This document shows positions 12,957 through 64,000 of a stretch of DNA of 64,000 bases, piece by piece. Under the pieces are notes generated by a model, which searched no databases, was not told the DNA's origin, and saw only the letters and a list, made by a program, of their open reading frames with translations. The DNA is from Proteromonas lacertae (Eukaryota > Sar > Bigyra > Opalinata > Proteromonadidae), in NCBI GenBank assembly GCA_002245135.1, contig NGBS01000617.1, forward strand, positions 16,575-80,574, given 5' to 3'. The translations under genes were made by a program, and so were the position numbers. Within the stretch, counting starts at the first letter, position 1. The number at the start of each line of letters is the position of its first letter.

Positions 12957-13577
12957 CTAATGAAATAAAGATGATGAAATGAAAATATACTGAAAGATAG
13001 ATAGAATAATATCTAGTATTTGAACTGTATTTTCGTCTAATAAAGTGTTGTTCCATATATTAGTATTTTGATTATAAGCATTTGATATAGAAGTGATTGA
13101 AGTATTGAAAATATTCCAACAGTTGTCATAATCCTCATTTTGTAATAGTCTCTCAACTAAAAATATCAGATCTTCTTTCCAAATGCTAAAGTGCTGTTTT
13201 GTATTTTCTAAATGATTAAATATATTAGATATACCAAAGTAATTGTCAAACTCAAGTAAGAATTGAAAGATTTGCTGAATGGAATGATTAAATTCATGCT
13301 TATTCTTACATGCTTTTGATGATTGAATTTCTGTGATATAATAGAAATACTTTATACCATAAATAGCTAGAAGAGGGTTAATAGTTGATATTGTGTAATT
13401 TAAGATTAGCCTGTTTAGAATATAGCTTTTGATAGTCGTTTCTATTTCATCTGATTCATTTTCATGTTGATTAGTAAAGATTTGTTTATTTTTGTTTACT
13501 AACTAATAGAACAGATATATACTATCCATATATGCGAATGCCAATGCAATGTGAAGCTTAATATTGCTAATATTCAT
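12957..13577 (-). CDS. Uncharacterised 198-aa protein
   Basis: Not recognised. Exon 1 (13577-13523) begins MNISNIKLHIALAF, a 24-nt intron (13499-13522, GTATAT...TTAG) follows, and exon 2 stays open for 542 nt to TAG at 12957-12959. I checked every codon of exon 2 for stops; a 180-codon stop-free run is unlikely by chance at this base composition. Exon 2 contains no in-frame ATG, GTG or TTG, so simple start-to-stop ORF scans miss it. The protein is rich in Asn, Ile, Phe and Leu, looks helical and cytosolic, and has no obvious motif. The PTB-like gene starts ~200 bp downstream on the same strand. Confidence 0.65.
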
Positions 13578-14076
13578 CGAATTTCGATGTTATCCCTTTT
13601 TTCTTCGCCGATTTATTTCAGTAATAAAATTGTTTGTTTAGTTAGTCTTAAAAATTGAAGAACACAATAAAAATTGATTTATTTATACCACAAAATTTAA
13701 TATGTATTTTCATATAGCTTTAATTCAAGACATTTGTGCGAAGGAAAGTAATGGATATTATACTTCAACAATCATTGAGTTAGGCACATGTTTAAACATC
13801 TACATAATAATATATGCAAGTGAGCTATATTAACATATAATATGCAATATAAACGACTAAAATCAATTTTATGCGTTACAACTGCATTTACAATAGTTAT
13901 GCACTTCCAAGTGGTTATTATATTGAGTTTTTAATGAAATATAATTAATTGTATGAATGACAATATCCATCATAATTCTTGTGCTTATTGTTTTTTACAG
14001 TATTTTCTTATCACTTATATTATTGTTGATTGAAATTTACACTAGTTCTAAAAATATAGTCGTTTCGATATAAAAA
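13578..14076. other. Intergenic region, divergent promoters
   Basis: About 500 bp between the minus-strand 198-aa gene and the plus-strand Cys-rich gene. AT-rich; I see no gene, RNA or repeat in it. It should hold both promoters. Confidence 0.5.
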
Positions 14077-15363
14077 ATGAGATTTGATATAGAAGAATAT
14101 AAAATACGTGAAGATTATATAATTAAATGTATTAGATGCAAGGAAAGTAAACAATTTACAGAGTTGTTTGATATAAGTGAAACAAATAAAGATAGTAAAT
14201 TTGTGTGTGGCGATTGTATAGGACTTAGAGATAGGATTAATAATACCAATCGTTTATGTTACTATTGTAAAACTTGTAAATGTTACATAGATAATTGGGA
14301 ATTTGTTGTTAAGAATAAGGATGGATCATATGATGAAACAGAAGAGTGTTTAACTTGTAGGTTATATAAATCAAATTTGAACAAAATGTTACAAAAGGAA
14401 ATGATTACTTGCCAAAAATGCAACATAGACCATACTTATATAGAAATATATAGAGTTGATGATAAATATATGTGTAGGAAGTGTATCGAAAAAAATATTG
14501 ATCAAACTGTTCCAGATATTCAAGCACCTATTGGTTGTTACTCATATGGCAGAAATTGTCAGAAATGTAATATAAACTATCCAAAATGGTACTTTGTAGA
14601 TTATGGAACATGTAATAAATGTGCTTATAAAGAAAGAATCCACAAAGTAATAGAAAATAGAAAGAAAGAAAGTAAATGTAAAGTTGATGATATTGATTCA
14701 GGTAGTGATGATTTAAAAAGAAGTCGTTCATTACATAAAAAATGCAACGAAAATGTTAACAGTTTTACAACATTTAATGAATCTCCGCCAAATAGTCTTC
14801 TTACAGCGGGAGACCCTCATTTTTATAAAAACAAACATGAAGTAAGTGAAAATAAAGAAGTGAAAATAAAAACAAATAAACATGAAGTAAGTGAAAAAAA
14901 CAAACCATATATATATTATTATTTTGAATATAAATTAAAAAGCGTAAATGTGAAATGTGAAAAATGTTCAGAATATTTTGAAAAGATATGTGCTTTTGGT
15001 TCTGTTAGAGAAGAGAAAAATATAGATTATGAAAGAGATGGATTTTATCATTGTCTTGATTGTGCTATAATAAAGAACGAAGTAAAGAAAATTAAAGATA
15101 AAGAGAAAAAAAAGAATGAAAACAAAGAGAAAAAGAAAGGTAGTGAAAAAGTAATAAATTTTAATAGAGTATTTGATGATGAAATAAGAGGAGTAAAAAC
15201 ATGTGGAAAATGTAAAAGAGTATATCCTAATTGGCATTATATATCAAACTCAAATAAGGATTGTTCATTTACAAAAGAGTGTCTGGAATGTAGGAATTTA
15301 GAAACTTTGACTAAAACAATTAAAAAAAAGAAAATATATTCTTTGTTTGAATTTTTAAAATAA
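14077..15363 (+). CDS. Cys-rich protein with six paired CxxC modules
   Basis: 428 aa, single exon, not assigned to a known family. It is built of about six units, each CxxC followed 20-40 residues later by another CxxC: CIRC...CGDC, CKTC...CLTC, CQKC...CRKC, CQKC...CNKC, CEKC...CLDC and CGKC...CLEC. Several have an aromatic patch (e.g. YPKWYF, YPNWHY) after the first pair. This pattern suggests repeated four-Cys zinc-ribbon modules. Between units 4 and 5 lies a charged linker with a direct duplication of NKHEVSE. It ends 138 bp before the first pseudokinase-LRR gene; decayed relics with CxxC motifs sit at the same position before copies 2 and 3, suggesting a co-duplicated pair. Function unknown. 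Confidence 0.75.
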   Translation: MRFDIEEYKIREDYIIKCIRCKESKQFTELFDISETNKDSKFVCGDCIGLRDRINNTNRLCYYCKTCKCYIDNWEFVVKNKDGSYDETEECLTCRLYKSNLNKMLQKEMITCQKCNIDHTYIEIYRVDDKYMCRKCIEKNIDQTVPDIQAPIGCYSYGRNCQKCNINYPKWYFVDYGTCNKCAYKERIHKVIENRKKESKCKVDDIDSGSDDLKRSRSLHKKCNENVNSFTTFNESPPNSLLTAGDPHFYKNKHEVSENKEVKIKTNKHEVSEKNKPYIYYYFEYKLKSVNVKCEKCSEYFEKICAFGSVREEKNIDYERDGFYHCLDCAIIKNEVKKIKDKEKKKNENKEKKKGSEKVINFNRVFDDEIRGVKTCGKCKRVYPNWHYISNSNKDCSFTKECLECRNLETLTKTIKKKKIYSLFEFLK

Positions 15364-15501
15364 TATAAATATAATAAATTCTTCATTTTTTTCTTAGAAT
15401 AATATTATGTCAATAACATAATCATAAATTCTTAACTTTAAGTTAAAACAGAAAAAAATAATATTGTAACGAATCTATTTTCACAGAAAAACTAAAAAAG
15501 G

Positions 15502-18500
15502 ATGATTTCTTTTACTGAAGATATATTTTGCTCAATATTACCCTTTGATATTCAAGTATTTTAGATGAATTATTTTTTTAGATAATAGAAAGAACAGAGA
15601 AGAGTAGAAATGAAGTTGATATGGTAATTAAATACCAAGATGATATGAAGAAAGTAAAATCGTAGATGTGAATGGAACAAAAGAAAAAATGTTATTAAAA
15701 TTCCTAGAAGGCTGCTGCATGTTGTTAGATTGTTGTAGATTTATAATTTGTTCTTCAAAAGTGTTTCAATTGAGTGATTATAAAGACTATATAGTATTGG
15801 AGAGAATATATTACATGAGAGATTTAGAAGAGATAATTCAACATAAATCCTTTTCAAATCATGAAATATGTGATATAATAAGTTCAATATGTGATGATGT
15901 AATGGTAATGAATGAAAATGAGATTGTAGTAGGTAATTTGAAGAGTAGTAATGTGATATATGAAGAGAATGGTATTTTAAAGTTATGTGATTTATGTTTG
16001 AATGAAATAAGAAAAGAAGAAGATATGAGATTGTATGATATATGCTTTACAAGTCCAGAAGAGTTGAATGGATTAGAATATGATGAAGGAAGTGTGATTT
16101 GGTCAATTGGGTGTATATTATATGAAATGATGTTTAATAAATTACCATTTTCAGAAGATAATAATATGTTTAAAACAAGAGAGAATATTGTGAGATGTAA
16201 ATACAATATAGATGTAGAATGTGATGATAGAATGAAAGAGATGATATATAGAATGTTGAAATTGAAGAATGAAGATAGAATGAGTTTGAAAGAGTTGAAG
16301 AAAGAAATGATAAAAATGAGTGAAATATTGATAGATGAAGGTGATAATATGATGATATGTGAAGAAAGAAAAGAAATATTATTAAATAATGATAATACAA
16401 TTGTTAGACTTCCAATAGAATATCCATCAAAATATTATATTGAAAGTGAAAAAAGAGAAGTGATTAGAGATAAATTGATAGAATCCTACAATATTCAACC
16501 AAATGAAAGAATATTGTCAATATTATTGATGATGAAAATGTACAAAAGAGATTATTTAATTGAAGATAGATTGAAATTTCAAATACATCATAAATGTAGA
16601 TATGGAGAATGTAATTTAGATGAGATAATATTTAAGATAAAAAGTGATTATTCAGATAAAGAAATGATGGAAATAGAATCATATTTTATATGTTTTTGTG
16701 AAGAAGGAATGAATTATTTATTTAGAATATTGAGAAAAATCAATCCAACTAAGCTGAAATTTTGTATTTTTCTATATATTGTTATTTGTATAGATTTTAT
16801 TCAAATACCAATTATTCGTCAATCATTATTTATATCATATTTGACTGGATTATCAAATCTACAAACATTAGATTTATCATGTTGTAATCTTACTTCCTAT
16901 TTCATTGAATCATTTGTTAAATCAATTCCATTAATGAAATTGAAATATATAGATCTTCGATGTATTTATAATCATATTGTTATTTTATGAAATAGCTAAT
17001 CGAATTGGTGTGAAAGGATTTAAATTGTTACTTCCATATTTACATTTATTAATCAACAAAGACAATGAATTAAATCTTTGGAAAATGAAATTAAATGATG
17101 AATGTATGATGTTATTATCATCAGAATTATATAAATATCCAAATCTTAAGAACATCAATATTAGAGAAAACCAAAACATTTATTCAAAGGGATTAAAAGC
17201 CTTATTCTCCAAATTTCCTGTCTCAAAAATAAAGTTTGATTTTAATAGAAGTAAAGAATTACTGATTGATAAAGACATTCCTGAATTAGTCAAATATATA
17301 ATAAACCGATGCAATAAATTATATCTGATTAATTTAGAAATAGATGATGATATTTTCAAAACATTCATTTCATTAAGATCAAATGAATTGAAAGAAATAG
17401 AAGTGTTATATTTGCCTTGTAAAATTTAATATTTTTATTATTATATAGATAATAAACTAACATATAAAAGTATAGAAATATTGATAAACAATTTATCTTC
17501 ATTTCCAAATCTTAAATATCTTGAATTAAATGAAAATGAAATAGGAGATGAAGGAATGAAAATATTATCTCCACATTTGAGTCTATTAAAAGAATGGGAT
17601 GATAGAATAGATTGTTCAAGTATAAATACTATCATTTAATATTCAATAGAAATGGGATTATCTTCAATTGGATTGAAGTATTTATTAGATGGTTTAAAGA
17701 GTATTCATCAAAAGATCAGATTGGATATAAGTGATAATAATATAGATTTGGATGGAATAGAATATTTGATGAATTATATGAAAGAAAATGATAATATTAA
17801 TAGATTGAATATTCATGGTATATTTATGGTAGTTTTTAATTTGTTTAATAGATAATACAATTGGTAATGCTGGATTTAAGCTATTAAAAGAGAATATAAA
17901 ACTGCTTATATATTATTGCTATTTAGATTTAACCAATATCTCAATAGATGATGAAAGTGTGATATTATTAGCTGATAAGATAGATTCAATTTCTAATTGC
18001 AACACAATAAACTTAAGTGGAAATAATATCAGAATGAATGGATTAAAATCAATTTGTTCCAAAACATTAGAAAAAGAAGAATATCCATTTATAGAAATGA
18101 ATAATATATCATGGAGAAAAGAAGAATGTGAATATTATTTGAATTATTGTATTAAAAAGAAAAGAAAAGACAATAAATACTATTATTTTTCCAGTATATT
18201 ATGTGTGTTTATAATGAAATAGATTTAAATCTGAATGATTCTCATATTTCATTAATAAAACAGATTGATTATGAAGAACTTGATTTATCCAATAACAAGA
18301 TTAGTTGTAATGGATTAAAAGAATTAACAGATTCTTTTACAGAAAATGTTAAATATATCTCAATTCATAATAATGAAATTGGAGATGAAGGAATAGAGAT
18401 AATATGTAAATATTTAGATAAATTTATTTATTCTACATTATCATTAAACATCTCAAGTATTTAAAATTCTGTATTGTATTGTATTGTATATAGAAATTGG

Positions 18501-18813
18501 GATGAGTGAAAAAGGATTGATGATGTTAATAGAAAGATTAAAAGATAATAAACCATTGACAAATATAAATTTATCAGGAAATGAATTAGATGAAAAAGAA
18601 TTGAGATTAATGAAAGAAAACAAAGAAGTATTTGAAGATTTAGAAAAATTATCAATAACATTAAAAGAAGATATAGATAAATCAGAATTAAAATCATTTT
18701 TAGAAACATTTACATCAATTGGTATAGTAGAGCTGGATGGGATAGAAGAAGAAAAGAAAAATGAGTTTTTAAATGAGTTTAGCAGTGTTGTATTTTTCTG
18801 TCAAAAAATATAG
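15502..18813 (+). CDS. Pseudokinase-LRR fusion, tandem copy 1
   Basis: Predicted start ATG 15502, first exon of 18 codons, 26-nt intron (15556-15581). A kinase-like region follows with a possible beta3 Lys (MVIK), but the catalytic loop reads VGNLKSSNV instead of HRDLKxxN and the metal motif CDLC instead of DFG. The activation end TSPEEL and the helix motif VIWSIGCILYEMM are retained. From ~16850 the protein is a ribonuclease-inhibitor-type LRR array split by phase-1 micro-introns (16764-16793, 16962-16995, 17419-17448, 17620-17649, 17818-17851, 18194-18222, 18457-18493). A one-base shift near 15660 breaks the frame after exon 2 begins. The last ~10 codons come from an inserted hAT element. 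Probably a regulatory scaffold or sensor; role unknown. Confidence 0.75.
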
Positions 18814-19942
18814 GTTTACCTATAGGTCAAAACCTATATCTTTAGCTTGACCTTTACCTTTCTTATACTAACTATTAGTTGACCTCCTATTGAACATGAG
18901 TTAAGAAGCATATAATCTAACCATAGATACAAAATTAATGTTTTATACATCATCTTTCAAATATCAAATTTGACCTTCGGTCGATGCACTTTTTATATTA
19001 CTATTATTTTGATCTATTTCTCAATGATGACTCACAATAACATATTATTAACATAATATTAAATTAATTATAGAATAAAAAAAATAAAAGAAAAAAACAT
19101 CAAGCTTGATGGTTTGACTAAGTAAATCTTTATTTTTTAAGATTTAGATCATTTAGATGTATAATTACTCAATATTTATAAGACTTTATAATATATGAAA
19201 CTATAGGGATATCACATTACCCCCTATCGCATCAAAAGAGTTGTGCATTTATTCAATTGCTGTATGTTAGAGAAGTTAAATTTTAACTACTTCAAAATGT
19301 TTTGGAAAACGTGATTAAAATAAAATATTCAGATTATTACATATGGTAAAAGCCAAAGTCAATTCAGATTCTGTCAACAAAGATCTATGTAAATTAATAA
19401 CCATCAATGCAGTCAGCACCACAATATTAGACTCACCAGAATTTAGAAGGTTTTGCTTAAAATTAGGATATATTATACCTCTAAGAGAGTTTTATAATGC
19501 TCATTTATTTTCAGAAACTGAGAAAGTAAGAGACTTATTGAAGACAAATCATTAATATCCAGAAATAGAGATTTATTATTATAATTACATTAATATTTGT
19601 TTTTTAGAGATAGTAATCAATATAAATTAATCATCAAAATAACAAGTTGTTTATAAATATGTTAAATATCACTATTGAGTAGTTTGTAGATGAATTTTAA
19701 TATATTAGTATAGATATTTATACAATTTCAACCAATCTTATTCTAACTATGGTAATCAAAGTAAAACAGGAAGCAGGAATAATATTTTATACAGTATGAT
19801 AATTTGTATTAAACAAATGTTACTCAGTAAGTAATTAAAATAGATTTTAACAAAATAATGCTCGAGGTTTGACCGACCAACGGTCAAAGCTAGATTATAG
19901 GTTTTACCTATAACCTATAGGTTACCTATTTATACAACCCTG
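18783..19942. mobile_element. Internally deleted hAT-type DNA transposon
   Basis: A ~1.16-kb block present after copy 1 but absent after the near-identical copy 2. Ends are imperfect inverted repeats starting CAGTGTTGTAT (left) and CAGGGTTGTAT (right, reverse strand), followed by subterminal runs built on TATAGGTTTACCTATAGG and TTGACC/GGTCAA blocks. It contains a short piece of hAT transposase. The flanking 8-mers (GAGTTTAG and GTTTTACT) do not form a clear target duplication, so insertion was followed by change or deletion. The same terminal and subterminal words occur at 48748 beside another hAT transposase. Confidence 0.75.
19343..19555 (+). pseudogene. hAT transposase fragment
   Basis: 70 codons inside the 18783-19942 element. 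The stretch SPEFRRFCLKLGYIIPLREF and its preceding KLITINAVSTTILD match the conserved N-proximal region of hAT transposases (the motif where a Val/Asp-Ser/Asn-PEFR block precedes a Leu-Pro-Ser-Arg-like turn). No catalytic or dimerisation domain remains, so the element is non-autonomous. Confidence 0.6.
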
Positions 19943-20118
19943 GTTTTACTCTATTATTCTTTTATTTGTTAATAATGAAAATGTTTATCATACTATATTA
20001 TACATATTTTCATTATCTCAGTTGATATTAAATACTTTCTATATTGTTTTGATCAAATTATTCAAAATACATTATCAAACCATGATCAAGCCTATATAAT
20101 TTTCATTTGAGTTTAAAA

Positions 20119-20704
20119 TGTGAATGAAAGAGATTGGTGACTGAATTTGTGAATGTGGTGAAGTAATTAAGTATACAGGTGAAGAATATATATATAAAGT
20201 GTGTTTAGTAAAACAATTCGTTGAAAGAGTGTAAAGAAAAGAAATAAATCATTGTAAAAATTGTTGATTGTTTAGTTAATAGAAGTGAATGGGTTAATAT
20301 AATAGAAGAAGAAAAGAGACAAATAATTATGAAAAATGTTGACTATTTTATATTATAGTAGTAATTGAATTATATGAGTGAAATAGTAAATGAATTGAAT
20401 ATATGGTCTAAGAGATTTAAATCTTCCAGAAAGATTAACAGAAAAAGTCAATAGAATAATGAAATGAGTGATTTAGATTTTATAGATTGTATATTATTTA
20501 AATCCTAAATCATAATTTCCAGAATCATCTCCAGCAGCAACTGAAGCAAGTAAAGTATCAACAGAAAGTGCTTGGGCAGTAGGTAATGTAGAAGGAGTTG
20601 AATTAGAAATAGATGAAAATACAAATGAAGCTGAAGTATCTAATAATACGATGAAGAAAACAAACAAATTTGCTTTAAAAAAGAAACATCCATTAAATAT
20701 CTAA
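20119..20704 (+). pseudogene. Relic of a Cys-rich gene upstream of copy 2
   Basis: Broken coding traces in the same orientation and position as the intact Cys-rich gene has before copy 1. Readable pieces: CECGEVIKYTGEEYIYKVC, NHCKNC, SEWVNIIEEEK, then after several stops a clean ~60-codon last exon (ESSPAATEASKV... to TAA 20702-20704) preceded by a TTCCAG acceptor. The last exon is not found in the intact gene, so this may be a different paralogue or a fusion of two relics. Its end lies 138 bp before the start of copy 2, the same spacing as at copy 1. Confidence 0.45.
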
Positions 20705-20842
20705 TATTTTCCTTTAATTTACTTGTTGAAGTTGTATTTCAAGTGTTAATAAACATGAATATAATAAACAAATATTGTGTAAGAATGATTTCTGTGTATG
20801 TAAATAAAAAATTCCATAAATGAAACGACTCAATATTTTGAA

Positions 20843-23800
20843 ATGTTGCATTTGATAGATAAAGTGTTATATGCTAAATTAGCATGTGATATGAAAGTAT
20901 TATAATTAATTTATTTTTATTAGGAGAAAGAGAGAATAGAAAGAAGTGTTAATGAGTTAGATTTAGTTGTAGAATATGAAACTGATATTCAAAAGTTGAA
21001 AGTGTTTAATGTATGTGAAATGAAAGAGAAACAAATATTAAAATTGTTAGAAAATAAGTGTATGTTGTTAGTTTGTTGTTCCTCCTTCATTTGTCGATAT
21101 AGAGTGTATGATATGAATGATGATGGTGAATATATGATATATTGCAGAGAATATTACAGTAGAGACTTGAAAGAGATAGTTTCTAAAATTGTTTATGTGT
21201 GAATGAAATATGTGATATAATAAGTTCAATATGTGATGATGTAATGGTAATGAATGAAAATGAGATTGTAGTAGGTAATTTGAAGAGTAGTAATGTGATA
21301 TATGAAGAGAATGGTATTTTAAAGTTATGTGATTTATGTTTGAATGAAATAAGAAAAGAAGAAGATATGAGATTGTATGATATATGCTTTACAAGTCCAG
21401 AAGAGTTGAATGGATTAGAATATGATGAAGGAAGTGTGATTTGGTCAATTGGGTGTATATTATATGAAATGATGTTTAATAAATTACCATTTTCAGAAGA
21501 TAATAATATGTTTAAAACAAGAGAGAATATTGTGAGATGTAAATACAATATAGATGTAGAATGTGATGATAGAATGAAAGAGATGATATATAGAATGTTG
21601 AAATTGAAGAATGAAGATAGAATGAGTTTGAAAGAGTTGAAGAAAGAAATGATAAAAATGAGTGAAATATTGATAGATGAAGGTGATAATATGATGATAT
21701 GTGAAGAAAGAAAAGAAATATTATTAAATAATGATAATATAATTGTTAGACTTCCAATAGAATATCCATCAAAATATTATATTGAAAGTGAAAAAAGAGA
21801 AGTGATTAGAGATAAATTGATAGAATCCTACAATATTCAACCAAATGAAAGAATATTGTCAATATTATTGATGATGAAAATGTACAAAAGAGATTATTTA
21901 ATTGAAGATAGATTGAAATTTCAAATACATCATAAATGTAGATATGGAGAATGTAATTTAGATGAGATAATATTTAAGATAAAAAGTGATTATTCAGATA
22001 AAGAAATGATGGAAATAGAATCATATTTTATATGTTTTTGTGAAGAAGGAATGAATTATTTATTTAGAATATTGAGAAAAATCAATCCAACTAAGCTGAA
22101 ATTTTGTATTTTTCTATATATTGTTATTTGTATAGATTTTATTCAAATACCAATTATTCGTCAATCATTATTTATATCATATTTGACTGGATTATCAAAT
22201 CTACAAACATTAGATTTATCATGGTGTAATCTTACTTCCTATTTCATTGAATCATTTGTTAAATCAATTCCATTAATGAAATTGAAATATATAGATCTTC
22301 GATGTATTTATAATCATATTGTTATTTTATGAAATAGCTAATCGAATTGGTGTGAAAGGATTTAAATTGTTACTTCCATATTTACATTTATTAATCAACA
22401 AAGACAATGAATTAAATCTTTGGAAAATGAAATTAAATGATGAATGTATGATGTTATTATCATCAGAATTATATAAATATCCAAATCTTAAGAACATCAA
22501 TATTAGAGAAAACCAAAACATTCATTCAATAGGATTAAAAGCCTTATTCTCCAAATTTCGAAATATATATTGTGATGTTAGTAAAGAATTACTGATTGAT
22601 AAAGACATTCCTGAATTATTCAAATATTTAAACCAATACAATGAATTATATCTGATTAATTTAGAAATAGATGATGATATTTTCAAAACATTCATTTCAT
22701 TAAGATCAAATGAATTGAAAGAAATAAAGAGATTAGATTTGCCTTGTAAAATTTAATATTTTTATTATTATATAGATAATAAACTAACATACAAAAGTAT
22801 AGAAATATTGATAAACAATTTGTCTTCATTTCCAAATCTTCAACATCTTGAATTAAATGAAAATGAAATAGGAGATGAAGGAATGAAAATATTATCTCCA
22901 CATTTGAGTCTATTAAAAGAATGGGATGATAGAATAGATTGTTCAAGTATAAATACTATCTTTTAATATTCAATAGAAATGGGATTATCTTCAATTGGAT
23001 TGAAGTATTTATTAGATGGTTTAAAGAGTATTCATCAAAAGATCAGATTGGATATAAGTGATAATAATATAGATTCAGAAGGAATAGAATATTTGATGAA
23101 TTATATGAAAGAGAATGATAATATTAATAGATTGAATATTCAAAGTATATTTATTGTAGTTTTTAATTTGTTTAATAGATAATCCAATTGGTAATGCTGG
23201 ATTTAAGCTATTACTAAACAATTTAGACATGTTATTAGAAAATAATTTAAATAAAATTGATTTAACCATCATCTCAATAGATGATGAAAGTGTGATATTA
23301 TTAGCTGATAAGATAGATTCAATTTCTAATTGCAACACAATAGACTTAAGTGGAAATAATATCAGAATGAATGGATTAAAATCAATTTGTTCCAAAACAT
23401 TAGAAAAAGAAGAATATCCATTTATAGAAATGAATAATATATCATGGAGAAAAGAAGAATGTGAATATTATTTGAATTATTGTATTAAAAAGAAAAGAAA
23501 AGACAATAAATACTATTATTTTTCCAGTATATTATGTGTGTTTATAATGAAATAGATTTAAATCTGAATGATTCTCATATTTCATTAATAAAACAGATTG
23601 ATTATGAAGAACTTGATTTATCCAATAACAAGATTAGTTGTAATGGATTAAAAGAATTAACAGATTCTTTTACAGAAAATGTTAAATATATCTCAATTCA
23701 TAATAATGAAATTGGAGATGAAGGAATAGAGATAATATGTAAATATTTAGATAAATTTATTTATTCTACATTATCATTAAACATCTCAAGTATTTAAAAT

Positions 23801-24125
23801 TCTGTATTGTATTGTATTGTATATAGAAATTGGGATGAGTGAAAAAGGATTGATGATGTTAATAGAAAGATTAAAAGATAATATACCATTGACAAATATA
23901 AATTTATCAGGAAATGAATTAGATGAAAGAGAATTGAGATTAATGAAAGAAAACAAAGAAGTATTTGAAGATTTAGAAAAATTATCAATAACATTAAAAG
24001 AAGATATAGATAAATCAGAATTAAAATCATTTTTAGAAACATTTACATCAATTGGTATAGTAAAGTTGGATGGGATAGAAGAAGAAGAAAAGGAAAGAAC
24101 TATCAAAAGAATATTTGAATATTAA
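20843..24125 (+). CDS. Pseudokinase-LRR fusion, tandem copy 2
   Basis: Start ATG 20843 (MLHLIDKVLY), an 18-codon first exon and a 27-nt intron (20897-20923), then the kinase-like region and the LRR array. From 21203 on it is nearly base-identical to copy 1 (offset 5342), including the VGNLKSSNV and CDLC changes at the catalytic and metal sites and all phase-1 micro-introns (e.g. 22304-22337). One A is missing in an A-run near 21186 relative to copy 3, which breaks the frame early in the kinase region. The C-terminus (...KRIFEY, TAA 24123-24125) shows the ancestral end that the hAT insertion changed in copy 1. Full length is about 900 aa once spliced. Confidence 0.75.
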
Positions 24126-24319
24126 ATAATTCAATTATTAGTTGTTTTACTCTATTATTCTTTTATTTGTTAATAATGAAAATGTTTATCATACTATACA
24201 TATTTTCATATTTTTTGTTAATATTAAATACTTTCTATATTGTTTTGATCAAATTATTCAAAATACATTATCAAACCATGATCAAGCCTATATAATTTTT
24301 ATTTGAGATTAAAATGTGA

Positions 24320-24897
24320 ATGAAAGAAATTAGTGACTGAATTTATGAATGTGATAAAGTAATTAAGTATACAGATGAAGAAGATATATATAAAGTGTGT
24401 TTAGTAAAACAATTCGTTGAAAGAGTGTAAAGAAAAGAAATAAATCATTGTAGAAATTGTTGATTGTTTAGTTAATAGAAGTGAATGGGTTAATATAATA
24501 GAAGAAGAAAAGAGACAAATAATTATGAAAATGTTGACTATTTTATATTATAGTAGTAATTGAATTATATGAGTGAAATAGTAAATGAATTGAATATATA
24601 GTCGAAGAGATTTAAATCTTCCAGAAAGATTAACAGAAAATCAATAGAATAATGAAATGAGTGATATAGATTTTATAGATTGTATATTATTTAAATCCTA
24701 AATCATAATTTCCAGAATCATCTCCAGCAGCAACTGAAGCAAGTAAAGTATCAACAGAAAGTGCTTGGGCAGTAGGTAATGTAGAAGGAGTTGAATTAGA
24801 AATAGATGAAAATACAAATGAAGCTGAAGTATCTAATAATACGATGAAGAAAACAAACAAATTTGCTTTAAAAAAGAAACATCCATTAAATATCTAA
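24320..24897 (+). pseudogene. Second relic of the Cys-rich gene, upstream of copy 3
   Basis: Near-identical duplicate of the 20119-20704 relic (offset ~4193), with the same stops and the same clean last exon ending at TAA 24895-24897, 138 bp before copy 3. Shared stops show that decay preceded the duplication. Confidence 0.5.
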
Positions 24898-25035
24898 TAT
24901 TTTCCTTTAATTTACTTGTTGAAGTTGTATTTCAAGTGTTAATAAACATGAATATAATAAACAAATATTGTGTAAGAATGATTTCTGTGTATGTAAATAA
25001 AAAATTCCATAAATGAAACGACTCAATATTTTGAA

Positions 25036-27522
25036 ATGTTGCATTTGATAGATAAAGTGTTATATGCTAAATTAGCATGTGATATGAAAGTATTATAATT
25101 AATTTATTTTTATTAGGAGAAAGAGAGAATAGAAAGAAGTGTTAATGAGTTAGATTTAGTTGTAGAATATGAAACTGATATTCAAAAGTTGAAAGTGTTT
25201 AATGTATGTGAAATGAAAGAGAAGCGAATATTAAAATTGTTAGAAAATAAGTGTTTGTTGTTAGTTTGTTGTTCCTCCTTCATTTGTCGATATAGAGTGT
25301 ATGATATGAATGATGATGGTGAATATATGATATATTGCAGAGAATATTACAGTAGAGACTTGAAAGAGATAGTTTCTAAAAATTGTTTATGTGTGAATGA
25401 AATATGTGATATAATAAGTTCAATATGTGATGATGTAATGGTATTGAATGAAAATGAGATTGTAGTAGGTAATTTGAAGAGTAGTAATGTGATATATGAA
25501 GAGAATGGTATTTTAAAGTTATGTGATTTATGTTTGAATGAAATAAGAAAAGAAGAAGATATGAGATTGTATGATATATGCTTCACAAGTCCAGAAGAGT
25601 TGAATGGATTAGAATATGATGAAGGAAGTGTGATTTGGTCAATTGGGTGTATATTATATGAAATGATGTTTAATAAATTACCATTTTCAGAAGATAATAA
25701 TATTTTTAAAACAAGAGAGAATATTGTGAGATGTAAATACAATATAGATGTAGAATGTGATGATAGAATGAAAGAGATGATATATAGAATGTTGAAATTG
25801 AAGAATGAAGATAGAATGAGTTTGAAAGAGTTGAAGAAAGAAATGATAAAAATGAGTGAAATATTGATAGATGAAGGTGATAATATGATGATATGTGAAG
25901 AAAGAAAAGAAATATTATTTAATAATGATTATTTGACAGAAGTATCACCATTTGATGTTTTATCAAAATATTATCGTAAATATAATAAATGGGAAGATAT
26001 TCGAGATGATTTGATAGAATTATACAATGATAAGCCAAACAAGAGAATATTGTCAATATTATTGATGATGAAATTATACAAAAGAGATGAATCAATAAAA
26101 GATAAACTGAAATATAGAGTTTATCATAAATGTGAAGTAGGAAAAGCAAGTCATTTAGATAGAAAGATATTGAATATTAAACATGATTGTTATGATATAG
26201 ACAAAATCAGAATTAATTCAAGTTGTTTTTGTTTATGTGAAGAAGGGATGAATTATTTTTTTAGAATAATGAAAATAATCAATCCAACAAATCTCTATTT
26301 TAGTATATTTCTAATCATTTTAATTATTATATAGATAGAATATTTGGTTGTAATTTTACTAACTGTTTTATTAAATCATTTATTAAATCAGTCCAGTATA
26401 TGAAATTGGAATATGTAGCTCTTCAATGTATTTAATACTTATTAAAATATATTATATTGAAATAGCTAATCGAATTGGTGTGAAAGGATTTAAATTGTTA
26501 CTTCCATATTTACATTTATTAATCAACAAAGACAATGAATTAAATCTTTGGAAAATGAAATTAAATGATGAATGTATGATGTTATTATTATCAGAATTAT
26601 ATAAATATCCAAATCTTCAGAGAATAGATATTAGAAATAATTGCAATATTCATTATAAAGGATTAAAAATTATATTATCCAAATTACTAATTTCAAAAGT
26701 AGACTTTGATTTGAAAGGATGTAAAGAAATACTGATTGATAAAGACATTCCAGAATCAATCAAATATATAAACCAATACAATGAATTATATCTGATTAAT
26801 TTAGAAATAGATGATGATATTTTCAAAACATTCATTTCATTAAGATCAAATGAATTGAAAGAAATAAAGAGATTAGATTTGAGTTGTATAATTTGATATT
26901 TTTATTATTATATAGATAATAAACTAACATACAAAAGTATAGAAATATTGATAAACAATTTATCTTCATTTCCAAATCTTAAACATCTCAAATTAAATGA
27001 AAATGAAATAGGAGATGAAGGAATGAAAATATTATCTCCGCATTTACATTTATTAAGTTATATTGATGAGATTAATTGTTCAAGTATAAATACTATCTTT
27101 TAATATTCAATAGAAATGGGATTATCTTCAATTGGAATGAAGTATTTATTAGATGGTTTAAAGAATATTGTTGAAAGGATTAGTCTTAATATAAGCTACA
27201 ATAATATTGACTCAGAAGGAATTAAAATGTTAATGAAATACATGAAAAAGAATAACAATATTAAAACATTGATCATTTATAGTATATATAAATTGAGTTT
27301 TAGAATTTCTTTTAATAGATAATCCAATTAATAAAACTGAAATGGATAAGTTGCAGAGAATAGTTGATAAAGATAATCTAGATAATAGATGCATAATATG
27401 TTTCAAGATTTAATGATCCAATTAAAGATGAAGTAGAGAGATACTGTACATTAAAATCGTTTTTAGATACATTCTCATTTATTGGAAAAAATAATAATAG
27501 ATGTGAAAAGAAAGAATTGTGA
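25036..27522 (+). CDS. Pseudokinase-LRR fusion, tandem copy 3 (shortened)
   Basis: Start ATG 25036, 27-nt first intron (25090-25116), and an unbroken kinase-like exon, so this copy shows the intact N-terminus. The VGNLKSSNV and CDLC substitutions are present. It is near-identical to copy 2 up to ~25917, then diverges for ~540 bp (different post-kinase region, introns re-read as GTATAT...ATATAG before 26335), becomes near-identical again from ~26458, and ends early: the LRR exons corresponding to 17852-18457 of copy 1 are missing and a tail with LKSFLDTFSFIG stops at 27520-27522 after one frame change near 27405. A strictly read frame stops at 27413. Confidence 0.7.
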
Positions 27523-27759
27523 AAGAATTGTCTAAAGAATTCTATAATGTTTATTAATACAAGCTATTTATTGATTTGTATCTGTTTGTGTGTTATAATT
27601 CTTCTTTTTCTTCTTATAGTAAATTCTTTGGTTAATTTTGAAAATAATAACCTCTAAGCTCTCTCTATAATTATTTATTAGAAAAACAAACTTCAAACAT
27701 AGTTTGTCAAGCTCATAGTTTGAAGACAACGTATTTTTGGTATTTAAAACAGGCTTTTT

Positions 27760-30700
27760 ATGATTAAGTATAATAATTATAATTGTTTCATCAATAGATA
27801 CCTATTCAGCTTACTAATTTACTTATCCGTGAGCATTTGTTTTGAGATACCTCTTCCTTATTTGAGTAATGTAGGTGAGGTTAATGAGGCTCCAATTATC
27901 AGAGTAACACACGAATATGACCATATAGAAGGAAGTGTTAGTCATATAAATGATGTTATAATATACGATATTGATGCTTTGAAGAATCCTGAAGCTTTGG
28001 TAAAGTTATTGTTATTGCCAAGTATATTTATAAATTATGTATAACAATATAGAATATGGAAATGTTAGTTTCAGTGATATTTCCAAAATTAGATATTGGT
28101 ATCCAAACGAAAATCCCAAATTAATATCTGTATTAGTGCATATGCAGGATTTAAGAGCTTTAGTATCCTCAATAATTTACACAGAAAGCAATGAATACAA
28201 AGGAGATAAAGATGAAATAGAAATAGAGTTAAATGATCGTGGTTTTACTGGAACAGGAGGTGAAAAATCATCTAAAAGTACAATTATAGTCAATTTAAAG
28301 TATATAAACAAAGGACCAAAGATTACTGGTGATTTTGAATTAATCTCAAACATATCTCAAGCTTCAATGATAAATCTGACAGATCGTGGATATGTAATTA
28401 CTGATGAAGATATAAATATGAAGAATCAAATGATGGTATTATCTTTAACCTCTGAATATGGTGAATTTATACTAAATGGTGGTGATATTGTAGTAGAATA
28501 TGAGAATATAACAAATGGAATAGCTATAACTAATAAAATAGAAATATTAAACAATATTTTAACAAATATGTCATTTCAATTATATCCAAATGTCAACACC
28601 TATAAGAAAGATTATATTAATTTTATATTGAGTATTATGTTGATAAATAACAATGAATTAAAAGATATAAAGATTCAATATTTGTCAGTAAATAGAACAG
28701 AATATAAACCAATAATTGAAGCTCCATTCGACATTACAATTGATGAAGACAGTCAATATAAATTCGATAGTTTTAAATTAAGTGATGAAAATGATAAATT
28801 TGATTCATTTGATTTATATAAACTAGTAATCCAAACCGATTGTGATAATAATAATAATAATTTTACAACAACTACTGCAGGCATTATTCAAAGTGGTATT
28901 ATGAATGGTTTACATCTTATTCTTATGAATGACAGTTATATTGAAGTAGAAGGACAATTAGAAAATCTTAACACTTTATTACATACAACTCTCTTTATTC
29001 CAAATGAAAATTATTATGGGCCAACAGAAATTTCATTAATTTTAAGCGATTATATATTAGAACCAGCAACTATCTATCGTACTATTAATATCGAACCAGT
29101 AAATGATGCTCCAGTTATTACAACAAAACATATCTATTATGGTAAAGAAAATCAAATAATTGAATTAGATGGATTTAGTGTGTCAGATATCGACTGTGAT
29201 TTAGATATATATATTGATATACAAGTGAATGTAGGTACAATTGGTTTTAAACAGAATAATCCTTGGTTAACATACACAATAGGTAATGGAGATGGTAAAG
29301 ATCAACATATTGCTCTTCATGGTAGTATATCAACAGTAAATCAAGTTTTGAAAGGATTAATCTATTATCCAGTGGAACATTTTAATTTTCATAAAGATGG
29401 AAGAGTGGAAGGTATTTTTAATGTGAATGATAATGGAAGATTTGGTAAAGGAGGAATAGAATCAACCACTTCATCATTTTATATTATTATCGAAAATGAA
29501 GTAGATAATACTGTTTTAAATATTGCTGACAGTAATTATGTTATTGATGAAGATACAGAATTAATGATTGAAGGTGTTGATGTTGTTGATAATGATGTTC
29601 AGTTATTTGATGATTTGGTAATTATGGTTGAAATTCAATGCAAAAATGGTAAAGTTATCATGAAGAATTATGAAGGTTTATATGTGATGAAAGGGAATAT
29701 TGTAACTGGAGAAAGTGATGGTTCTATTATATTTAGAGGATCAATTTCAAGTATAAACAATGGATTTAAAGCATTCTATTATCAGGGAAATAAAGATTAT
29801 TATGGCAAAGATGAAATATCAATTAAAGTGACAAACTTAGAAAAAATGATAAGTAATCCAGATAAAGCTGTTTCAAGTGGAAAAATTTCTATAGAAATTG
29901 AAGCAGTAAATGATGCACCAGTAATTGTAATTAATACTCCATATATAGAGATATATGAAAATGAATCCACAACTATTCAACCAGTAATTATTACTGATGT
30001 TGATGCAAGAGTAAATGATTTTATTCAGTTGAATATTTCCACTGAAATTGGTAGTGTAAAAATACCTTATATCAAGCAAGTAAACTATAAAGTTGGTAAA
30101 CCTGAAGAGTTTGAACAATTTGTGAGTTTAGAATGCACAAAAATAACACTTACAAAAGTATTAGATACATTTATATATAAGTCAAAGGAATATTACAGTG
30201 GAAGAGATTCTATTGAATATAGTGTAAATGATTTAGGTGCTACAGGAAAAGGCGGTTTTAAAACAGCTAAAATGTCAATTATTATACTGATTTATCCAGT
30301 AAATAATCCACCAATCATTAACTCACAAAACGAATATTTTATTGAAACAAAGAAAAACGGTTATATTAATAGATTGAATGGAATATCGATAAATGATATT
30401 GACTATACATTATCTTCTATTGATTATTTATTAACTGTAACAATTAAAGTAGATGAAGGTAATAAGAGTGATATTAAATCAGGAACAATTTCATTAGGTA
30501 ATTCTATTGAAGATTGTAACGGATTATTTTTTAGAAATGGAAGTGGATTTAACGACTCTTTTTTAGTATTTGATGGAAATGTTCAAAATATTAACAATGC
30601 ATTTGAGTAAAATAATATTCAACTACAAATTACTATGGTATGGAATATCAAATTTATACATTAAAGTGAGTGATAATGGTTATTTAAGTATGAATAATAC

Positions 30701-48747: not shown

Positions 48748-49792
48748 TAGGGTTGTATTTATCGGTCAACCGACCAATATAGGTCACAACCGCTGGTTTT
48801 GTGTTGACCGTAGGTCGGTCAAACATATCAACCTTCATTATATTAAAATCTATTTTAATTCATTATGGAAAGATATTTGTTTTATAAAAAGAATGAAAAA
48901 TAGTATATTGCAACATTGTAGCAATATTTTGCTTTTAATATTAAATAAATGCTACCGTATAACTTACACATTTGTTAAATCTTCTTATTATTTTATTTAT
49001 TTTTAGTATTCTATTCCAAATGAAAATAAGAAATAATGTTTTTATATTTTATAAATCTCTATTTCTCGAAATTAGCACTTTCATTTCAATATGCTCAGAT
49101 GATATATTACATTTGTTTAAATTGCTTAGTCTTCCAGTTTCACTAAAGATTCGCTCTGATTCACTAGAAGATGGTTGGCATGCTAAGTAGTTTTTCGCAA
49201 TTTTAAAAATACGTGGAAAAGAAGCTTTAAGAGTAAGACATATTTTAGATAGATCTTCTCCAGTGCTAAATATTTCTGTATATTCTAGATAATTCATCAC
49301 TTCTTTATCATTACTGATTCTTCTACGCTTTATTGATGTACTTTTTAAATACTTATCTAAATCATTGTTATAACTAATAGATTCATCGTCTATATCTACA
49401 GTATTATCATCATCATAATCTATTAAATTTTCTAATGTATTCTTAGCTTCTCTATATTCTTCGGCAGTAAATCCTAATAATGTTGATTTCATGAATTGCT
49501 TCACTCTAGGATCAAGCAAACAACATAACAAAGGTATTGATGTTTCATTGTTTATAAATTTTATCTTTTCTATGAAATTTCTTTGTATATTTTTTGCATA
49601 TTCATTTAGCTTTGATGGGTATATATCGGTATTAAGTTCATAAATTATTTTCTTTATATTTAACATAGCCATCCCCAAATTGGTTTCTCTTTTTTCCATT
49701 AACAATGTTATGTCGTAAATTGGTTTCAAAATGTTTACTAAATAATCAAGAACAATATAATTAGCAGGGGATCTTGTGTTTTGGGTGGCCAC
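48748..49792. mobile_element. 5'-truncated hAT transposon
   Basis: One end is recognisable at 48748 (TAGGGTTGTATTTATCGG), followed by a subterminal GGTCAACCGACC / GACCGTAGGTCGGTCAAAC pair that matches the right end of the 18783-19942 element. The transposase 3' part reads inward on the minus strand. The other end is missing: the transposase frame runs into a different repeat at ~49776-49792. Confidence 0.7.
49049..49792 (-). pseudogene. hAT transposase C-terminal half
   Basis: About 240 codons without N-terminus. Recognisable hAT features are the LLDPRVK block in the catalytic core region, an acidic insert, and the C-terminal dimerisation motif YLACQPSSSESERIFSETGR followed by ending residues KVLISRNRDL. 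The DNA-binding zinc finger and the upstream catalytic part are absent, and the apparent first codons lie in the neighbouring repeat, so the protein is 5'-truncated and presumably inactive. It may nevertheless be expressed, since the remaining frame is intact. Confidence 0.8.
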
Positions 49793-61346: not shown

Positions 61347-64000
61347 TTAATCATATTTCTTTTTAGTAATTTGAGTTAATATATCAGGATTTCTATAAAT
61401 CTGTAATACGTACAACGATAACTGATATTCATCTTTCAAATGACCTTTATAATGTAAATATCTCGCAATATACACAGCATCACACAAATATAGTAAATCT
61501 TCGCTATCTATGATTTCTTCATACAAAACTTGCCAAGGTCTTGAACTAAATATACTTCTCACTACTTGACCAATTGCTACGACTATTACTGCATAAAATG
61601 TAATAACTCCTAATCCATTGATAGATATTAACAAATCACCAATCACTCCTTGCATAGCTTTATCACTAATAACAATAATACCAAGATCATCACTAGTTTC
61701 CCAATAACAATTCAATCGATTCATACATCTATAATTTAAAGTCATATTCTTCCATTCAGTTTGTTGTGTATCTATTAGCAGTGGTGTTGTTGATGCTGTT
61801 AATCTTAATACACGAGGATAGGCATTCTCTAATACTAAAGAAGCATTTTCTTGTTGAGTTAAAATCTTGATTAATTGAGCTTCTTCATTTTCATTCATTG
61901 GAATAATATGAGAATCATAAACTTCAAGAGCATTCTATATATATTGCATAAATAATAATAATTATTATATATACAGATGGTGCAAGTCTTTTAAATAAAA
62001 GATCAATTGAAAATGTTTCTTGAGTAGTTTCATTATGTAATAAACTCAACAGCAATTGTCTGTTGGGTGGAGACATACCCCAAAGATCATTGGCAAATGG
62101 TTGAAGTTGTACTTCTTGTCCACAGTCTTTATGATGAGGTAAATATACTATTTAATAATAATTATTTTTAATAAATACATTGTGATGGTATTTTCTTCTC
62201 TAACTCAAAGAATTCATCTTGAGTTAATGGTCTTAATATTTTCATTTTGTCTCCTGTAAATAGTTTATAATCTCCATTGATAGTCTATTGTTATAAATAA
62301 CAATAATAAATAATTATACATGAATATTAACACTCATCTCCAAGTTTGTTATTGGATTAGTTGAAAGTGTTGGATTTCCTGCACTAAATAATACAATTGG
62401 TGCTACAACAGATATAATCAGCAAAGCCAACATTCCAAATGGATATAATTTATCTATCCAATCTCTTTTTGTCTACTTTTATACTCAGGATCACCATTTC
62501 TCATTGCCATCTATATAGAATATATATAATAATTGATACAATGCATCTATTTTGAAATAGAAATGAAATAATCTCTTCAATTTTCATCCACATTTGAAAT
62601 GTAACAACTGTTTCAGAACTTACATGATCTAAGAACATTCTAATTTCCCATAAGAATGGACAATAACGATAAGCCATATGAATAGCAAAAACAACGTAAT
62701 ATGTATAATAACTATAATCTTCAATATAACCAGTAGTAACTATTCCTTGAACATAGCCATAGTATATTTGTAAAGCACCAACATACAAATAAATAACACC
62801 AAAAATGTAAAACCATTCTAATAAAGATGTTTCTGACATGAATTTTTGTGAATAAAATGGAGCATAAAAGAAACAGAATAGATGTAATAAACAGGTAATA
62901 ACTACTTGCATAATTATCTTTAACAATAAACTTCTTCTAATATAACAGATTCTTTCAACTACCATAATAAATATCACCACTATCATTGAATAAAAGTTGT
63001 TGTACTGAATTGACTGTTTAAAAATTGATCTTGAACAGCTGTAATATCAGCACTGGATGTGATTTGACCAAAGAAAAGTAATACAAATATCAACATAATA
63101 AATTGAATAAATGCAATAACTAAATACAAATCTGCGCCAACTTTCTTGGGACTGTTTTGGATGTCAATGCATCAATGGAAGCTGTACCAACACCTGATCT
63201 TCTTAAGAACTTTAATAACCACATTGGAAACAAATGGTACTTTATGAATTGGTTTTGTTCTGTTTGATTTGTATAAACTGATTTGCTGGCTATTTCAAGA
63301 TCAATTTCAGATTGAGTATCATAACGATTATCAACATATAAACCCATATACTATTTAATACATTAATAATAAACATATAATATACATTTAGCATGAAGAT
63401 ATGAAATAGAATAGCTACAAATAATATCAAATAACCACTTAATGATTGTATTAAACTACTATTCATATAATCTTCTCCTCTTTGTTAATTCCAATTAAAT
63501 CTAATATTTGGACATGATCTAAACCATCTGGAACTATTTTTGATGGACAAAAAGGCTATAAATTATATAAATATAAATAATATATACATATATGCTTGGA
63601 TAATATTGATTACCCTTTATTTCTGACAAAACAATGGTAATTGATAAGTATAATTTGTGATAAAAACAATCCATATAAATTCCATTAGAAATATCCAATA
63701 CTTTGATGATGGTAATGGTGAATCGATTGTCGAATAACAAAACATTGAAAAAAGAATAATAAAAGATATCAAATTACTGTCATAAATAGCAACAACAACT
63801 GCACCAACATAAACTAAAAATTCACTATTACTCATACAAATATAAGATATTAATGATATAATATCTTTTGGATATTTATATTTTTTACCCATTAATAAGA
63901 TTGGATTAATTGTATGTTTTGTAAGCCATTTTACTATGTAATGATAGATTCTATAAGCTCCTAACTTGTGGAATTCTTCGCCTGCTTCTTCATCAGATAT
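61347..64000 (-). CDS. piezo: Piezo mechanosensitive cation channel, C-terminal part
   Basis: Plasma-membrane stretch-activated channel; the gene enters from the right edge. Exons encode membrane helices (e.g. YVGAVVVAIYDSNLISFIIL), a beam-like cytosolic segment, the last transmembrane block (MIVVIFIMVVERICYIRRSL, WFYIFGVIYLYVGALQIYYG, anchor region YCPFLWEIRMFLDHV), the cap domain (GNPTLSTNPI...TINGDYKLFTG), pore helix region SDKAMQGVIGDLLISINGLG / VITFYAVIVVAIGQVVRSIF, and the conserved tail LYVLQIYRNPDILTQ. Introns: 63556-63587, 63351-63385, 62511-62539, 62285-62319, 62148-62178 and 61935-61974 (29-40 nt). Single-base frame breaks occur near 63605, 63460, 63170, 63020 and 62466, the last at an A-run. 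Stop TAA 61347-61349. Confidence 0.9.

Follow-up and report, generated by a model that had tools for sequence, protein, structure and literature searches.

Animal NLRs such as NLRP3 and NLRX1 carry a nucleotide switch, the NACHT domain, N-terminal to leucine-rich repeats (LRRs) of the ribonuclease-inhibitor (RI) type, and are present in large numbers in some animals. Plant LRR receptor-like kinases likewise combine LRRs with a kinase fold in large families, some with an atypical catalytic loop of the HGNIKSSN type, and are built from an extracellular LRR, a transmembrane segment and a C-terminal kinase. Among pseudokinases, the JH2 domain of JAK2 has an HGN-like loop, and we know of no fusion to RI-type LRRs and no expansion to hundreds of copies for JAK2 JH2, STRADalpha or ILK. 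All three have a kinase-family domain that has lost catalysis and kept the ATP-site residues wholly or partly, according to the portion of PMC4718504 available to us. In plants, the pseudokinases ZED1/ZRK and the LRR protein ZAR1 act jointly in recognition as two proteins (PMC9539561, available in part), and the accessible part of PMC3019232 describes lineage-specific kinase expansions in Phytophthora infestans, with many predicted inactive kinases (32 in all) and 16 transmembrane TKL kinases with extracellular LRRs. Here we describe an array of three genes that join a kinase-like domain and RI-type LRRs in one chain, located in a 64,000-nucleotide stretch (the window) of a Proteromonas lacertae contig (C1150) that belongs to a eukaryotic genome assembly of 50.2 Mb in 1181 contigs. 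We propose that the array represents a single locus in a very large family of soluble, likely non-catalytic pseudokinases that would hold a nucleotide and are joined through a linker to diversified RI-type LRR sensors, a proposal to which we give about an even chance.

The window has a GC content of 22-31% (in 2-kb steps), and positions 15502-27413 hold three head-to-tail copies of a single gene (g1, g2 and g3). After predicted splicing, each consists of a short first exon followed by a kinase-like domain, a linker of about 135-141 residues and RI-type LRRs; the gene models are predictions from which short introns (26-38 nt, GTA...TAG) were removed. A reading made earlier from the letters alone (the sequence-only reading) had proposed such a fusion in three adjacent genes, and predicted splicing together with Pfam matches in copies 1 and 3 bears it out. 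The three-gene array that it described also stands, but not its end, as g3 stops at 27413 and not at 27522. The copies and their parts are as follows.

15502-18813, + strand: copy 1 (g1), with first exon 15502-15555, main exon (kinase-like domain and linker) 15582-16763, and LRR exons after it
15556-15581, 16764-16793 (in frame), 16962-16995, 17419-17448, 17620-17649, 17818-17851, 18194-18222 and 18457-18493, + strand: predicted introns of g1
15929-15952, + strand: VGNLKSSN of g1, the catalytic-loop equivalent (HRDLKxxN position)
20843-24125, + strand: copy 2 (g2), chimeric and frame-shifted in its main exon
20897-20923, 22106-22135 (in frame), 22304-22337, 22746-22775, 22947-22976, 23145-23178, 23527-23555 and 23790-23826, + strand: predicted introns of g2
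21271-21294, + strand: VGNLKSSN of g2, the catalytic-loop equivalent
25036-27413, + strand: copy 3 (g3), open after predicted splicing (727 aa), with an LRR part shorter than in g1 and g2
25090-25116, 26303-26334, 26428-26465, 26886-26915, 27084-27113 and 27282-27318, + strand: predicted introns of g3
25192-25194, + strand: g3 equivalent of the beta3 (VAIK) Lys, K26 of alignment A1
25243-25839, + strand: g3 kinase-like domain, the Pfam Pkinase match over residues 61-259
25465-25488, + strand: VGNLKSSN of g3, with H, R and D of HRD all replaced and the K168 and N171 equivalents retained
25525-25533, + strand: DLC of g3 at the DFG place, with the metal-binding Asp retained
25876-26298, + strand: g3 linker, 141 aa as used in alignment A5, conserved across the family
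26335-27413, + strand: g3 LRR exons, RI type

The final codons of g1 are altered by a stretch that starts near 18753. Early in the main exon, g1 and g2 each carry one frame shift, which may be real or an assembly error; g3 and two further copies on contig C852 (described below) are open there, the latter for 469 and 401 aa. The highest 19-residue hydropathy mean in g3 is 1.57 (residues 56-74, outside the inter-domain region), and hydropathy revealed no transmembrane segment between kinase and LRR, so that the family protein looks soluble. In contrast to plant LRR receptor-like kinases, the kinase comes first and the RI-type LRR last, with no strong hydrophobic span. A candidate transmembrane anchor in g1 and g2 was rejected, since the hydrophobic residues ahead of the LRRs would be encoded by an in-frame intron of 30 nt, according to the splice prediction.

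The kinase-like domain is recognised by the Pfam Pkinase profile (PF00069, cut-off 31.7 bits) in g3 (6.3e-22, 78.7 bits), in g1 from the frame shift on (8e-23, 81.6 bits) and, at E <= 0.001, in all 17 members of alignment A1. Against solved structures the A1 profile matched kinases, the best at 4.7e-17 (best 60 of 1390 matches), and in the alignment to solved kinases VVGNLKSSNV of the family sits on VVHRDLKPENV and a family Asp on the DFG Asp. VGNLKSSNV, DLC, the SPEE end of the activation segment and VIWSIGC are found in g1, g2 and g3, just as the sequence-only reading had noted. Matches to 18 PADLOC families, mad6 and PD-T4-6 among them, are taken to reflect the kinase fold.

Motif conservation across the three copies nevertheless proves little, because their DNA is near-identical and g2 is a chimera, so that they are not independent witnesses. 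Residue conservation was tabulated across the genome instead, from 40 loci chosen by linker and not by kinase motif, all beyond the list of matches to the g3 kinase and linker (L056 matched over its N-terminal part only), together with earlier loci. The table leaves out the window genes (L009, L027 and L030), RNA polymerase genes (L039-L042) and L044, where the sequence read was that of an adjoining AGC-type kinase. Its 71 rows were thinned to 57 members less than 90% identical, and positions were ranked among 244 columns. At the HRD Asp position 51 of 56 members have Asn, two have Asp, two Tyr and one another residue. The beta3 Lys (K26) is kept in 53/54 (rank 14), the catalytic-loop Lys (K121, equivalent to K168) in 55/56 (rank 7), the Asn171 equivalent (N124) in 54/56 (rank 16) and the DFG Asp (D137, equivalent to D184) in 55/56 (rank 7). 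The DFG Gly position (Phe in 21, Cys in 13 and Tyr in 10 of 56) ranks 222 and the HRD Arg position 225. In the part of PMC4718504 available to us, Asn171 and Asp184 are stated to bind the ATP cations and Asp166 to be among the residues needed for catalysis. Judged by residues, the family lacks the HRD Asp, G-loop glycines and DFG of a catalytically active kinase and keeps the beta3 Lys, catalytic-loop Asn and DFG Asp expected of a nucleotide-binding pseudokinase. JAK2 JH2, STRADalpha and ILK resemble it in this residue pattern. We consider the existence of the family and its predicted pseudokinase state to be well supported; the kept ATP/Mg-site residues, like the crossover chimera and the spread of the family through the genome, both described below, go beyond what had been noticed earlier.

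Relatives with intact HRD and DFG, which would speak against a conserved loss of catalysis, were looked for. None was present among the members sampled through the g3-like search, the linker-chosen loci and the Asn and Asp DNA patterns; the ordinary kinases of the genome, for which 131 Pkinase matches are listed, were not compared individually. As DNA patterns, which detect exact matches only, the NLKSSN type occurs at 197 sites genome-wide versus 9 for the DLKSSN type (controls, 0). Eight of these nine were read, and all lack H and R ahead of the Asp; seven have CDLF at the DFG position and one is out of frame there. Apparent exceptions are L052 and L062, which have the Asp without H or R, and L074, which reads CDFG and has Met at the catalytic-loop Lys. 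A tandem kinase-pseudokinase gene considered at C195/C581 (L043, L044) was rejected, as the neighbouring kinase, AGC-like to judge from its sequence, lies in a separate open frame.

The paralogue count in the genome is large: 290 sites, alleles counted, match a degenerate DNA pattern written for VIWSIGCI, and the reversed control has no match. Searching with the g3 kinase and linker gave 105 scored matches out of 1417 first-look candidates, at 51-100% identity and with the three window genes included, and 97 of the 105 run without an in-frame stop. When only the L035 linker served as query, 150 scored matches came from 499 candidates. Exact VIWSIGCI DNA in 25 of the 40 linker-chosen loci leads to an upper estimate of about 464 copies, probably too high because those loci lie outside the g3-search list, and hence are more divergent, and because alleles are counted. 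Two contig pairs, C195/C581 (L043/L044) and C505/C1159 (L034/L036), are more than 99% identical where compared, which suggests that alleles were assembled separately and that gene counts are inflated. Family members were sampled and not read exhaustively, and our count is 290 sites, with a possible ceiling near 460. The conserved catalytic loss, LRR fusion and local duplication of the sequence-only reading are thus supported by the genome more than by three near-identical copies. On contig C573, one 80-kb stretch (376153-456336) holds at least six NLKSSN-type sites with an identical 29-nt match, perhaps a further cluster of near-identical copies.

Comparison of the copies with one another reveals that g2 is a crossover chimera, with an upstream spacer and 5' part resembling g3 and a 3' part resembling g1. 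The DNA of g2 and g3 is 98-100% identical over 20185-21583, whereas g1 and g2 are 99.5-100% identical over 21384-22376 (g2 coordinates) and 85-100% further downstream. The switch lies at about 21203-21700, within the kinase exon. A 300-nt block holding the catalytic loop is, relative to copy 1, 100% identical in copy 2 and 99% in copy 3, and the block 22571-22761 of g2 is about equidistant from g1 and g3 (93.2 and 93.7%). Two intergenic segments bear on the history of the array.

20185-20784, + strand: spacer 5' of g2, 98-100% identical to the spacer 5' of g3
18753-19943, + strand: segment 3' of g1 absent from C852, about 1.1-1.2 kb, with a weak 27-nt inverted repeat (70%) near its ends

The genome search with the g3 kinase and linker found only two family places on contig C852. 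In a 9.9-kb stretch (L085), C852 matches window positions 13454-18753 at 97.2% and 21203-28698 at 97.7%, both flanks included, and is apparently an allele with two genes instead of three. This pattern indicates that the two apparent alleles differ by one unit of about 5.3 kb, as unequal crossing-over would yield. The segment 18753-19943 is probably an insertion of mobile DNA; a small open reading frame (ORF) inside it had no Pfam match.

The Pfam LRR_6 profile matches the C-terminal part of g3 (9.7e-13) and of g1 from the frame shift on (3.6e-14), at 47.6 and 52 bits against a cut-off of 23.4, through the sum of the repeats and with no single stretch below 0.001. Both Pkinase and LRR_6 thus score above their cut-offs in copies 1 and 3. 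By sequence, the LRR part of g1 finds ribonuclease inhibitor as its best match in the PDB (4.7e-12), with NLRP3 at 1.3e-7 and NLRX1 at 1.9e-4. Across 22 close members the kinase has a median pairwise dN/dS of 0.51, compared with 0.67 in the linker and 0.45-0.69 in the LRR exons. Within the LRR, pN/pS at the 33 exposed beta-strand codons is 1.35 (0.80-2.51) versus 0.54 (0.41-0.69) at the other 215 codons (codon bootstrap intervals, 209 of 231 pairs, beta positions marked on g1). This concentration of variation on the exposed beta-strand face would fit a diversified binding face and does not prove positive selection. At fourfold sites g3 differs from eight members (57-64% amino acid identity) by 0.18-0.50, where saturation would give 0.67, which suggests, from few sites (14-19 each), fast protein change and not great age. 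The earlier description of the family as rapidly evolving is moderately supported: the exposed beta codons favour it, but dN/dS places no LRR exon clearly above the linker.

Beyond this genome relatives are few. Among 5.8 billion proteins, g3 found six kinases at 25-36% identity, and the four that were read are ordinary-looking, with HRD or HHD. A 17-member profile added two weak kinases and three fragments at 42-50% identity, the latter with the source label 'lgn' (taken as Logan assemblies). Two of the three fragments span the catalytic loop, both without HRD (DSLKTSN and GNLKSSN). By these protein searches the family is so far seen only in this genome and in three fragments, none of the titles listed in literature searches deals with one like it, and it is apparently lineage-specific. 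No STAND NTPase domain (NACHT or NB-ARC) was found in g1 or g3 (Pfam, E <= 0.001), and a genome search disregarding introns gave two weak matches each for NACHT and NB-ARC. As in NLRP3 and NLRX1, a module precedes the RI-type LRR, yet it is kinase-like and not NACHT; in contrast to ZED1/ZRK and ZAR1, there is one chain without NB-ARC; and in contrast to the transmembrane kinases of P. infestans, there are hundreds of sites of one family that looks soluble.

Based on these data, we envisage that the kinase-fold domain most likely transfers no phosphate and would hold a nucleotide that serves as a structural element or a switch. The exposed LRR face would recognise variable protein partners or a foreign ligand, and binding would be relayed via the linker to the ATP-loaded pseudokinase, which might act as a conformational switch or docking module with output to a partner in trans. 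Copies would multiply and recombine by unequal crossing-over, as the g1-g3 array suggests. More tentatively, the family may constitute an NLR-like system of intracellular recognition, independent in origin, with a degenerate kinase in place of the STAND NTPase switch; unequal crossing-over would reshuffle its hundreds of ATP-loaded receptors, and their diversity would lie on the LRR face. Several observations weigh against these ideas. GxGxxG is absent from all 17 A1 rows, with one Gly retained in four (the G-loop region was placed by order, the solved-structure alignments starting after it), so ATP binding may be weakened. Two positions that are candidates for the alphaC Glu (Glu91) are more weakly conserved (49/55 each, rank 56). 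The linker has no significant Pfam or PDB match, the best being an EGF-like domain at E = 0.0053 in one of 14 members, and no effector domain was recognised, only kinase and LRR families being found in copies 1 and 3 (Pfam, E <= 0.001). With LRR exons at 0.69 at most and the linker at 0.67, the LRR does not stand out in dN/dS when all of it is considered. The pN/pS interval of the beta positions spans 1, its pairs are non-independent and the positions were marked by hand. Two AF2 models (mean pLDDT 46.4 and 40.4, pTM 0.28 and 0.26, 8 aligned rows each) were of too low a quality to be informative.

Some of these points would suit other explanations. If the genes encoded an ordinary adaptor or scaffold, expanded without a role in recognition, LRR variation would reflect relaxed constraint, as the dN/dS of 0.45-0.69 everywhere and a beta-position interval that includes 1 would allow. 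However, variation is focused on the exposed beta positions with the scaffold retained, and an adaptor would not usually have hundreds of copies or differ in copy number from one contig to another; we find this explanation unlikely. A decoy would account for the copy number and tandem duplication, and for kinase C-lobe features retained without catalysis: the pseudokinase would mimic a host kinase attacked by parasites and the LRR would read its modification, on the logic of ZED1/ZRK and ZAR1 within one chain. ZED1 is itself thought to be a pseudokinase decoy (PMC9539561, in its available part). Yet a bait should preserve its exposed surface, whereas here it is the ATP/Mg site whose residues count among the most conserved, and the loci that were read include no intact kinase with this linker that could be the parent; a decoy is doubtful, if worth keeping in view. 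The sensor or decoy role put forward in the sequence-only reading is still reasonable to infer.

Decay is a further point against function of any kind, since two of the three window copies are frame-shifted and stops occur in 8 of the 105 scored matches and in the matched stretch of 6 of the 40 linker-chosen loci. The family could on this account be mostly decaying duplicates of little function, left behind as unequal crossing-over or mobile DNA multiplied a dead kinase gene. We think this quite improbable: the other 97 matches have no in-frame stop, the ATP/Mg-site residues are near-invariant while much else varies, and the kinase part has a median dN/dS of 0.51. Retention of the Lys72, Lys168, Asn171 and Asp184 equivalents would also be expected of a non-canonical active kinase working without the catalytic Asp, for which WNK and CASK, active despite missing residues, are precedents (PMC4718504, as far as its available text goes). 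Here, however, neither the catalytic Asp nor GxGxxG is present and the DFG Gly position is one of the least constrained, and the same text holds that activity is best predicted by VAIK together with an intact Gly-rich loop, which makes an active kinase very improbable. Our preferred reading remains that of a nucleotide-holding pseudokinase coupled to LRR sensors.

Other genes surround the array. Just 5' of it, a 429-aa cysteine-rich ORF with repeated CxxC pairs (14074-15363, + strand) has no Pfam family at E <= 0.001. Directly 3' lie very long open frames (27748-48334, + strand; 858, 1888, 1533, 1225 and 1037 aa) with many 'VNDAPVI'-like repeats, of which the first matches Pfam Cadherin_4 (1.6e-10) and the last matches none; they apparently form one gene for a giant cadherin-like protein. 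Further downstream are a hAT transposase C-terminal dimerisation region (49052-49792, - strand; Pfam 2.5e-7) and exons of a Piezo channel (61350-63046, - strand), with the cap domain at 2e-33 and the THU9/anchor domain at 1.4e-31. Elsewhere, contig C1132 (13661-48897) has three places matching PF00562, the second-largest RNA polymerase subunit, about 17 kb apart and two of them with internal stops, which may have arisen by local duplication followed by decay of copies. The RPB2 sequence of this genome has a 98% match to a fragment and, in a tree of 45 rows, groups with 9 rows, 6 of which are named stramenopiles (SH-aLRT 97), on a long branch of 1.38; this makes a stramenopile origin probable, and the short introns led to a guess at Opalinata.

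In its two-gene and three-gene versions, the g1-g3 locus shows an array changing size, with the crossover junction readable in the sequence. The many copies that lost one catalytic residue while keeping the same ATP-site residues amount to a mutational experiment run by nature, from which the residues that a dead kinase has to retain can be read. Should the proteins prove to be sensors, the part of the NLR switch would be played by a kinase fold, with consequences for our view of the number of times that LRR-based immunity or self-recognition arose inside cells.

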